Positions 14,471 to 17,062 of a stretch of 22,933 bases of DNA are shown one piece after another. The stretch comes from Candidatus Symbiothrix sp. Lineage in GTDB: Bacteria; Bacteroidota; Bacteroidia; Bacteroidales; Azobacteroidaceae. The notes below the pieces were generated by a model. The model was not told the origin of the DNA and ran no database searches. It was given only the letters and a program-made list of their open reading frames with translations. Every line of letters begins with the position of its first letter. Positions within the stretch are counted from its first letter, which is position 1. The stretch spans positions 1-22,933 of the forward strand of contig JAISXN010000131.1 of assembly GCA_031270525.1 (NCBI GenBank), in the 5' to 3' direction. A program made the position numbers and the translations under genes.

Positions 14471-15541
14471 TTATTCCAAATAGAGATAATCATAATGTAT
14501 CACCGGTTTATTTCCTTTCCGTCCGATTAATTCCTTTGTTTTCTCACTACTATAACTTGCTTTCCCAACGCCGATTATCCGTTCTTTATCATCTATGATA
14601 CGAACAATGTCGTCTTTTTCAAAAGCGCCTTTTACCGAAATGATACCTACCGGCAGAAGAGAAACCGCTTTTTCGCCTGTCAATGCTTTTGCCGCATTGG
14701 TATTGATATGAATTTCTCCTTTCGCAAAACTGTCCGAGTGAGCAATCCATTTTTTAATTCCCGAAGAGGCTTTGACGGAAGGAATAAAGCGTGAATAAAC
14801 CACGTCAGGGTCTTTTCGCAAAATGCGGGAAAGAATATTTTCGGTTTTTCCGTTGGCAATAATCACTTCGACGCCTTCCCCGGCGACTTTGCGGGCAATC
14901 CTGTATTTAGTCGCCATACCGCCCCGGCCGAAAGTCGATTTGGAGGTCTGGATACAAGCTGTGAGGTCGCTTTCCTGGTCAATCTCACGAATGACTTCCG
15001 AATCCTGGTCTGTCGGCAAACCGGTATAAATTCCGTCGATGTTGCTCAGGATAATCAAGGCTTCGGCGTCCATCATAGCAGCTATCATTCCCGAAAGTTC
15101 GTCGTTGTCGGTAAACATCAATTCCGTTACGGAAATCGTATCATTCTCATTCATAATGGGAATGACTTTGTTTTCCAACATAACGCCTATACAGTTTTTC
15201 TGATTGAGATAGTGACTTCGGGTACCTAAACTTTCTTTCGTGGTAAGCACTTGACCGCAGGTAATCCCGTGTTCGCGAAAAAAATCGTAATAACGATTAA
15301 TCAGTTTGGCCTGTCCTACTGCCGAGTACAATTGCCGTGCGGAAACGTCGTCCAATTTACCTTTTACTTTGATTTCATTGCGTCCCGAGGCCACCGCGCC
15401 CGATGATATCAGGATAATTTCCAATCCTTCCCTGTGTAAGTCTGCTATCTGATCGACTAATGCCGACATTCGCGTTACATCCAGCGAGCCATCGTCCCGG
15501 CTTAACACATTGCTACCCACTTTTATAGCTATTCGTTTCAT
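14471..15541 (-). CDS. proB: Glutamate 5-kinase
   Basis: ProB phosphorylates glutamate to start proline synthesis. The 356-residue product has the amino-acid-kinase domain (KVGSNVLSRDDGSLD at 8-22, ILISSGAVASGRNEI, NENDTISVTELMFTDND) and a C-terminal PUA domain from about residue 270, as in full-length bacterial enzymes. proA, its usual partner, is not adjacent; an esterase gene follows instead. The start ATG at 15539-15541 lies about 35 nt below a TATCTTTG promoter element. The gene diverges from the 6S-like RNA. Confidence 0.93.
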   Translation of the reverse strand: MKRIAIKVGSNVLSRDDGSLDVTRMSALVDQIADLHREGLEIILISSGAVASGRNEIKVKGKLDDVSARQLYSAVGQAKLINRYYDFFREHGITCGQVLTTKESLGTRSHYLNQKNCIGVMLENKVIPIMNENDTISVTELMFTDNDELSGMIAAMMDAEALIILSNIDGIYTGLPTDQDSEVIREIDQESDLTACIQTSKSTFGRGGMATKYRIARKVAGEGVEVIIANGKTENILSRILRKDPDVVYSRFIPSVKASSGIKKWIAHSDSFAKGEIHINTNAAKALTGEKAVSLLPVGIISVKGAFEKDDIVRIIDDKERIIGVGKASYSSEKTKELIGRKGNKPVIHYDYLYLE

Positions 15542-15625: not shown

Positions 15626-15657
15626 TTTGTTTCATTCAACTATTATTTCTACATTTG
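15626..15657 (+). promoter_or_regulatory. Strong promoter of the 6S-like RNA
   Basis: TTTG at 15626-15629 and TACATTTG at 15650-15657, separated by 20 nt, match the Bacteroidota consensus and spacing exactly. Transcription should begin near 15661-15664, just before the closing stem of the RNA. It is one of the two best promoter matches in the window. Confidence 0.75.
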
Positions 15658-15663
15658 CATATA

Positions 15664-15850
15664 AATAAAGCCGCATATTGTCGATTGGAAAACTCATCAA
15701 ACAATTAAACAATTCCGAGACAATTTTTGCCGGGAATGGCGGGCCGCATCTTTCGAGACTGCTTTTGAGCACAGCGGATTACAAATACGGCAAAAAACTC
15801 AAATCATGTTATACGGAGTTTTGTTTACATCCACAGTGCGGCTTTTTTTG
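15664..15850 (+). ncRNA. ssrS: 6S-like RNA (SsrS candidate)
   Basis: This is a structured transcript of about 185 nt that I interpret as 6S RNA, which binds RNA polymerase holoenzyme. A 9-bp closing stem joins 15667-15675 to 15837-15845 and ends in a U-tract (15843-15849) that would serve as terminator. Further pairs stack inward: TTGT/ACA near 15679 and 15833, GGA/TCC (15687-15689 with 15830-15832) and 15699-15704 with 15821-15826. A 9-bp apical helix pairs 15724-15732 with 15788-15796, leaving a large unpaired centre. Size, rod shape and central bubble fit 6S RNA, as does a consensus promoter. Bacteroidales 6S RNAs are divergent; I recall the Rfam family Bacteroidales-1 being proposed as this RNA. 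tmRNA, SRP RNA and RNase P do not fit. A cis-acting leader of the downstream gene is the main alternative. Confidence 0.6.
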
Positions 15851-15877
15851 TTTCTAAACGATAAACATTTTTACTTC

Positions 15878-17062
15878 GTGAAACGGTTTCTTTTTTTCGG
15901 TCTATTCCTGTTTTTCTCCTTTCTTATACAATCGAAGACATACAATGACTTGCAGGTCAGTCTGTTGACGGTCATTCCCCGTTCAAAAGCCGTCTATACG
16001 ATTTACGGACACACGGCTTTGCGTTTCTATTCTCCTTCCCGTTCTATCGACGCCGTCCTGAATTGGGGGACTTTCGATTCGGACAAGCCGAATTTTATGT
16101 ATCATTTCCTTTTGGGCGAAACGGATTATTTCCTGAGCGCGGCGCCCGCCCAACATTTTATAGATACTTACGAAGCCGGTAATTCTACCGTTGTCGAACA
16201 GGTTATCAATATTCCCGACAGCCTGAAAACATCCTTGCTGCAAATGATGGAAACCTGTCTGCAGCCTGAAAATATCGAATACCGTTACAATATTTTTTTC
16301 GATAACTGTACGACGCGCCCCCGTGATATTATCGAAAAAGTTTGCGGAGGAACATTGATTTATCCGAATCAGGACGAACCGGTTACGATAAGAAAATTAG
16401 TGCATGGCTGCACGCAGCATTATCCCTGGATGGAATTTGGGATTGATTTGGCAATCGGGAATGGAGCCGATTCGTTGATTTCCCGGCGTACCGAGATGTT
16501 CTTGCCCGAAAGATTGATGAATCTTTTAGGCCGGTCGGTTGTCAAAACGCCCGACGGGACGGAATATCCGGTTGTCCTTTCCGAAAAAACCATTTTGCAG
16601 TCGGGCGACGGTAAGGCAAAAGATGGGTCTTTGTTCACAAAACCCATCTTTGTAAATATTTTTGTATTCTTTTTGATTGCTGCCGGCTTAAGCCGGCGGC
16701 AAAAGGGGAATTTTCGATGGCCTTTCGCTGCCTTGTTTTTGGTTGCAGGTCTTGGCGGATGCATTATTGCCGGCCTTGTCTTTTTGTCGGAACATCCCTG
16801 TACTTCGCCCAATTGGAATCTGGTTTGGTTACATCCGTTGCATCTGATTGGTTTTGCGGGATTCCTGTTTAAGAAATTTTATGCCTTGTTTCGTTGGTAT
16901 CATGCTGTAAATTTTGTACTTTTGTCAGGTTTTTTGTTAGGATGGTATTGGATTCCTCAAGTATTAAACACAGCTTTTATCCCGCTTATCGGTTGTTTGT
17001 GGCTTGTTTCGGGATATCAATACTTGTTTTTGAAAAGAAAAAATGCTGAAAATAAAAAATAA
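15878..17062 (+). CDS. lnb: DUF4105 protein, candidate lipoprotein N-acyltransferase Lnb
   Basis: This is a DUF4105 membrane protein of about 394 residues. I recall this family containing Lnb, the enzyme that adds the third acyl chain to lipoproteins in Bacteroides in place of Lnt. After a signal or anchor (1-19), the periplasmic domain carries GHTALRF (His45) and DNCTTRPRD (Cys144), a Cys-His pair like that of NlpC/P60 enzymes. Five hydrophobic helices fill about residues 255-390. I chose the GTG at 15878, which gives a clean signal segment (VKRFLFFGLFLFF). The longest frame starts at ATG 15806, but that lies inside the 6S-like RNA, upstream of its terminator. The 3' end overlaps the next gene by 20 nt. 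Gene order DUF4105, phosphatase-like, secA seems conserved in Bacteroidales from memory. Family call is firm; the enzyme name is inference. Confidence 0.75.
   Translation: MKRFLFFGLFLFFSFLIQSKTYNDLQVSLLTVIPRSKAVYTIYGHTALRFYSPSRSIDAVLNWGTFDSDKPNFMYHFLLGETDYFLSAAPAQHFIDTYEAGNSTVVEQVINIPDSLKTSLLQMMETCLQPENIEYRYNIFFDNCTTRPRDIIEKVCGGTLIYPNQDEPVTIRKLVHGCTQHYPWMEFGIDLAIGNGADSLISRRTEMFLPERLMNLLGRSVVKTPDGTEYPVVLSEKTILQSGDGKAKDGSLFTKPIFVNIFVFFLIAAGLSRRQKGNFRWPFAALFLVAGLGGCIIAGLVFLSEHPCTSPNWNLVWLHPLHLIGFAGFLFKKFYALFRWYHAVNFVLLSGFLLGWYWIPQVLNTAFIPLIGCLWLVSGYQYLFLKRKNAENKK
16619..16651 (+). other. Strong intragenic hairpin in the DUF4105 gene
   Basis: AAAGATGGGT (16619-16628) pairs perfectly with ACCCATCTTT (16642-16651). 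Inside, TTTG (16630-16633) pairs with CAAA (16638-16641) around a TTCA tetraloop, leaving one bulged base. That makes 14 bp, followed by a T-rich stretch (TTTGTAAATATTTTTG). It resembles an intrinsic terminator but sits in coding sequence between the periplasmic domain and the first membrane helix. Confidence 0.7.

Follow-up and report, generated by a model that had tools for sequence, protein, structure and literature searches.

RNAs of the 6S class share a closing stem, an open central bubble and an apical arm. Within the Bacteroidales, a dRNA-seq study of Bacteroides thetaiotaomicron described a Bacteroides 6S RNA and two classes of product RNAs, and it gives the promoter consensus as TAnnTTTG / TTTG (PMC7366714). 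The name RF01693 does not occur in the main text of that study. The Bacteroidales-1 family itself (Rfam RF01693) entered the literature in 2010 (PMC2864571), is described by Rfam as '6S-Bacteroidales RNA suggested', and appears once per strain in a re-annotation of Porphyromonas gingivalis (PMC5771137).

The locus studied here lies in a window of 22,933 nt, the whole stretch of DNA that was analysed. When the window was scanned against 4227 Rfam families, RF01693 gave the sole match above its gathering threshold (15669-15849, forward strand, 158.5 bits against a cut-off of 60, E 1.4e-27, cmscan), and this match spans the whole model (1-179 of 179). It is also the only RF01693 match in the source genome at E 0.001 (1.49 Mb, 53% complete). 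We conclude that 15626..15850 is very probably a gene that stands on its own and encodes the Bacteroidales 6S RNA (Rfam's Bacteroidales-1). An earlier note, which recognised the RNA class from the raw letters alone, had called this interval a 6S-like RNA and had named the Rfam models of 6S and Bacteroidales-1 as the ones that it might fit. The Bacteroidales-1 model fits, at 158.5 bits, but the canonical 6S model (RF00013) does not; the covariance-model match and the conserved, co-varying helices described below together support the 6S-like reading. The locus is thus one more copy of an already catalogued, well-conserved small RNA family, real but ordinary. What is added is this copy, a clean example of the suggested Bacteroidales 6S RNA from a little-studied lineage, and covariation in a closing stem that is absent from Rfam's model; the rest agrees with known biology. 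The features of the gene are as follows.

15626..15657, +: promoter of the type read by the Bacteroidota primary sigma factor, from sequence (TTTG at 15626-15629, a 20-nt spacer, TACATTTG at 15650-15657)
15669..15849, +: RF01693 Bacteroidales-1 RNA, suggested 6S RNA of Bacteroidales (cmscan)
15668..15675, +: P1, 5' arm of the closing stem, pairs with 15837-15844 (30-row pair counts)
15683..15695, +: conserved strand GATTGGAAAACTC on the 5' side, forming P2 and P2' with 15816-15831; putative template of product RNAs
15696..15716, +: open centre, 5' strand; A/U-rich and partly variable, without pairs in the consensus fold
15717..15719, +: P3, GAG pairing with CUC at 15798-15800 (none of its 3 pairs varies in the 30 rows)
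15725..15732, +: P4, 5' arm, pairs with 15788-15795 (the second helix of the earlier note minus its first pair; pair counts)
15736..15747, +: conserved internal-loop strand AUGGCGGGC and, at 15744-15747, the 5' half of the apical stem (pairs with 15774-15777)
15774..15785, +: 3' half of the apical stem, with the conserved strand GAUUACAAA (conservation, pair counts)
15788..15795, +: P4, 3' arm (30-row pair counts)
15801..15815, +: open centre, 3' strand; mostly single-stranded in either consensus fold
15816..15831, +: strand GAGTTTT..., the 3' pairing partner of 15683-15695
15837..15844, +: P1, 3' arm of the closing stem (30-row pair counts)
15843..15849, +: tract of seven T at the RNA end (sequence; T-rich in relatives)

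RF01693 matches were found in 32 of 58 near genomes, including 27 of the 34 genomes of the same genus with the source genome counted (best 37 or fewer candidates per genome), and in 79 of 295 genomes across the order, 56 of them over the cut-off (best 8 or fewer candidates per genome). The number of best candidates scored per genome was at most 8 for the order-wide RF01693 and RF00013 searches, 12 for 6S-Flavo and 37 for the near genomes, and with so few, absence in these large searches is weak evidence. Two alignments were built. The first (A2) holds 30 correctly oriented rows, 26 from the same genus (own row included) and four from elsewhere in the order; three of the 33 matches are absent from it, namely the second match of G016, and G027 and G037 (G037 is below the cut-off). 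The second (A3) holds 28 order-wide rows, made up of 27 new loci and L001, the only row in common with A2. Lower-scoring loci were left out of A3, so the 57 distinct rows lean towards good matches.

A chance fold was rejected: 15662-15850 folds better than every one of 200 dinucleotide shuffles (z -3.21). Two helices had been named beforehand from the single sequence, a 9-bp closing stem (15667-15675/15837-15845) and a second 9-bp helix (15724-15732/15788-15796), and each is present here as nine Watson-Crick pairs. Their covariation is clear in the 30 rows, where 16 of the 18 pairs change on both sides (shuffle mean 9.2; none of 500 shuffles reaches 16) and 89.4% of cells are paired, own row included, against 33.5-47.7% when the helices are slid. 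Only 7-8 bp of the closing stem are conserved across the 30 rows, as its outermost pair (15667/15845) is standard in 7 rows and the next pair inward in 23.

The consensus fold is a rod consisting of P1, P2 with P2', an open centre measuring roughly 21 by 15 nt, P3, P4, an asymmetric loop and the apical stem. P1 changes on both sides in six of its eight pairs (96.3% of cells paired in 30 rows), P4 in all eight (92.1%) and the apical stem in two of four (98.3%); the double-sided changes in P4 and the apical stem show the conserved paired core of RF01693 to be present. Between these two helices lies the conserved asymmetric loop AUGGCGGGC / GAUUACAAA, the first strand of which is at least 95% identical over the 57 rows. 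P2 and P2' are paired in 98.0% and 98.1% of cells (30 rows). P2' joins AAACUC, at least 95% identical at 15690-15695 over the 57 rows, with GAGUUU, and six of its seven pairs never vary, nor do any of the three pairs of P3; P3 and most of P2' therefore carry no covariation evidence. Over the whole fold of A2, double-sided changes occur in 19 of the 37 counted pairs, with 96.7% of cells paired, a result that none of 500 shuffles attained; the counted pairs are those of the predicted fold minus two at columns 160-161/168-169, and the counts lean towards the fold since it was predicted from the same alignment. A3 gives the same layout, with double-sided changes in at least one row for 20 of 43 predicted pairs. 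The large open centre with inner helices that had been proposed is seen in both consensus folds, as is the proposed 6S architecture of closing stem, open centre and apical arm.

Compared with RF01693 as catalogued, the locus has the same conserved blocks, and its full-length match scores 2.6 times the cut-off. In Rfam's structure line neither end is paired, whereas P1 co-varies here, and the model could be extended by this closing stem.

The proposed consensus promoter (TTTG, 20 nt, TACATTTG) was located by script with all of its elements in place. With the -7 box placed at -12 to -5 (PMC9723704), transcription would start at about 15662. TAnnTTTG alone is frequent in the window (15 on the forward and 11 on the reverse strand), and TTTG-N17-22-TAnnTTTG occurs in three places, each on the forward strand. 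Of the 57 rows, 52 carry TAnnTTTG no more than 60 nt ahead of the Rfam start (all except L015, L042, L043, L054 and L056), against 5.4% (615/11400) in shuffles that preserve base composition only, not dinucleotides. In counts made without a control, 52 of the 57 rows have TTG-N17-23-TAnnTTTG at most 100 nt upstream, and 39 have the stricter TTTG-N17-22-TAnnTTTG. In the 52 rows with the motif, TAnnTTTG is 16-56 nt away from the RNA, so in some relatives P1 may be preceded by up to about 40 nt of leader. In 12 of the 30 rows, all of the same genus (L003, L004, L005, L006, L007, L009, L010, L012, L014, L016, L019 and L030), 46-54 nt separate the start of the motif from the RNA. The extra leader of L003, L005 and L010 has a short inverted repeat of the TATC...GATA kind.

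At the other end, the seven-T tract that had been claimed is in place in this sequence, but relatives do not always have seven: the mean is 4.9 T of 7, at least five in 37 of 57 rows, compared with 1.7 of 7 slightly downstream. A simple scan found no local terminator hairpin before the tract, so intrinsic termination, if any, would need the long-range closing stem.

The genes on either side are listed here.

14471..15541, -: proB (glutamate 5-kinase), divergent neighbour, with AA_kinase and PUA domains (named from these domains and the earlier note)
15878..17062, +: downstream gene with Lnb_N and 5TMH_Lnb (Pfam), the DUF4105 gene of the earlier note; GTG start presumed

We take Lnb_N to be the former DUF4105. 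The longest frame of the Lnb gene starts at 15806, inside the RNA, and GTG 15878, ahead of a hydrophobic leader, is its probable start. Judged by ProB, the nearest named relatives include Bacteroidia bacterium MS502-39 (91% identity), a Dysgonamonadaceae bacterium, Candidatus Symbiothrix and Candidatus Azobacteroides; several of these are names of termite-gut bacteria, and Azobacteroides is classified in the Bacteroidales.

This arrangement could suggest that the RNA is a 5' leader or attenuator of the Lnb gene, which lies on the same strand, its presumed GTG separated from the T tract by 28 nt, and which recurs in the examined flanks of five of 30 loci (L001-L030). Against this, six of the ten loci whose examined flanks match proB (L006, L011, L014, L018, L019 and L020) have complete 1.5-kb flanks and carry the RNA with no Lnb match at E 1e-5, a search that a more distant or diverged Lnb would escape. 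In the other 20 of the 30 loci, the examined flanks, some of them cut short, gave no proB match. As the neighbours change among loci, the leader reading was rejected, and we regard it as highly improbable. Even less credible is a small protein gene. A 59-aa frame is open at 15678-15857, and 47 of the 57 rows have some forward frame that runs uninterrupted across the tested body; however, the distance from AAACTC to GAGTTT modulo 3 is 2, 0 and 1 in 24, 17 and 16 of the 57 rows, so that no frame is kept, and it is base pairing that is conserved, unlike any reading frame. The small protein was rejected on these grounds, in agreement with the earlier view that no protein reading explains the interval. 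With spacing not kept modulo 3 and neighbours that change, the reading that suits the locus best is an RNA gene standing on its own. A standalone gene with its own promoter, as in the 6S class, is what the sequences indicate, with TAnnTTTG in 52 of 57 rows and changing neighbours.

The layout of the two consensus folds, with closing stem, open centre and apical arm, is that of the 6S class. We infer a 6S function from the Rfam description, kinship with 6S-Flavo and the B. thetaiotaomicron report; by the same analogy, the candidate RNA would bind RNA polymerase holoenzyme and its conserved 5' strand would template product RNAs. The B. thetaiotaomicron RNA likewise comes from the Bacteroidales, with a promoter consensus of TAnnTTTG / TTTG (PMC7366714); it is experimental, whereas the present locus is known from its sequence, and it may be an RF01693 RNA. 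With canonical 6S (RF00013) the locus shares the overall layout, the class features named at the outset, although RF00013 has no match in the source genome at E 0.001 (1.49 Mb, 53% complete). Two of the 295 genomes of the order match RF00013 at E 0.01, neither of them among the RF01693 matches (best 8 or fewer candidates per genome). The above-cut-off RF00013 matches are G085:C182:939-1115 and G156:C10:9900-10087 (69.9 and 52.1 bits), and they are either contamination or true canonical 6S.

The 6S-Flavo model (RF01685) matches the core of the RNA, 15692-15821, at 32.3 bits under a relaxed threshold, below its cut-off of 85, and this is its only match in the source genome at E up to 1. Across the order, 27 of 295 genomes match RF01685 at E 0.001 and none reaches the cut-off of 85 (best 12 or fewer candidates per genome). 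In all five genomes with both (G074, G112, G208, G215 and G228), the RF01693 and RF01685 matches share a strand and overlap; the remaining 22 of those 27 genomes are not among the RF01693 matches listed.

Bacteroidales-1 could instead be a structured small RNA with another function in trans, its 6S label being a guess. Rfam says 'suggested' only, the part of the 2010 paper that treats the family marks it 'Y' as an RNA and '?' for cis-regulation and for a switch and gives no function (PMC2864571), and RF00013 finds nothing in the source genome. On the other hand, the size, closing stem, open centre, apical arm and primary-sigma promoter-like sequence fit 6S, the family coincides with 6S-Flavo in five of five genomes having both, and searches with RF00013 and RF01685 found no other 6S candidate in the source genome (53% complete). 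We consider such another function unlikely and retain the 6S reading.

If the RNA works as others of the 6S class do, the rod would imitate an open promoter and hold RNA polymerase bound to the primary sigma factor, and the rod would be released when the polymerase transcribes the 5' strand of the centre into a short product RNA. The likely template would be the conserved GAUUGGAAAACUCAU strand. Once copied, this strand would no longer pair with GAGUUUU, which could leave CGG free to join the CCG of CCGAG.

Folding predictions bear on this rearrangement. Folded alone, the sequence of the locus differs in part from the consensus in the centre: the predicted AAACUC:GAGUUU pairing is 0.02 here and exceeds 0.5 in 20 of 57 rows. 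The CCG at 15715-15717, which crosses the edge of the open-centre 5' strand, is an alternative partner for 15814-15816. When the presumed template was blocked in silico, the mean predicted CCG:CGG pairing rose from 0.43 to 0.67 over the 57 rows, whereas a control block gave 0.19; the pairing rose by more than 0.1 in 31 rows, fell by more than 0.1 in three, and exceeded 0.5 in 40 under the block. The letters for CCG:CGG are absent in nine of the 57 rows, and in the own row the pairing is already 0.82 without any block. A different refolding, a hairpin of CUC (15798) with GAG (15816), was rejected, having risen by more than 0.1 in only four of 57 rows; CCG:CGG was picked after this failure, which makes its test exploratory. 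The predictions over the 57 rows thus lend weak to moderate support to CCG:CGG as an alternative pairing.

Two genomes of reduced size bear on the fate of the RNA. G002 (1.2 Mb, 99% complete, same genus) has a strongly diverged RF01693 match on the reverse strand of L062 (1501-1682, 29.5 bits, below the cut-off, E 0.0023-0.0031) that retains AUGGCGGG and AUUACAAA and has lost much else. G021 (1.0 Mb, 99% complete) has chance-level RF01693 matches only (best E 1.24). Nine of 14 control genomes also match once E values up to 10 are allowed, which leaves the G002 match as the only one of note. Decay of the 6S RNA in reduced genomes is possible. It is doubtful, in our view, that the RNA is a two-way switch of its own design, its CGGAGUUU strand pairing with AAACUC in the polymerase-holding form or with CCGAG after copying, and also decays or disappears in genome-reduced relatives (1.0-1.2 Mb). 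Within the genus, G016 carries RF01693 matches of 162.5 and 158.3 bits, both full-length, on different contigs (C205 and C88); they represent either two copies or a mixed assembly.
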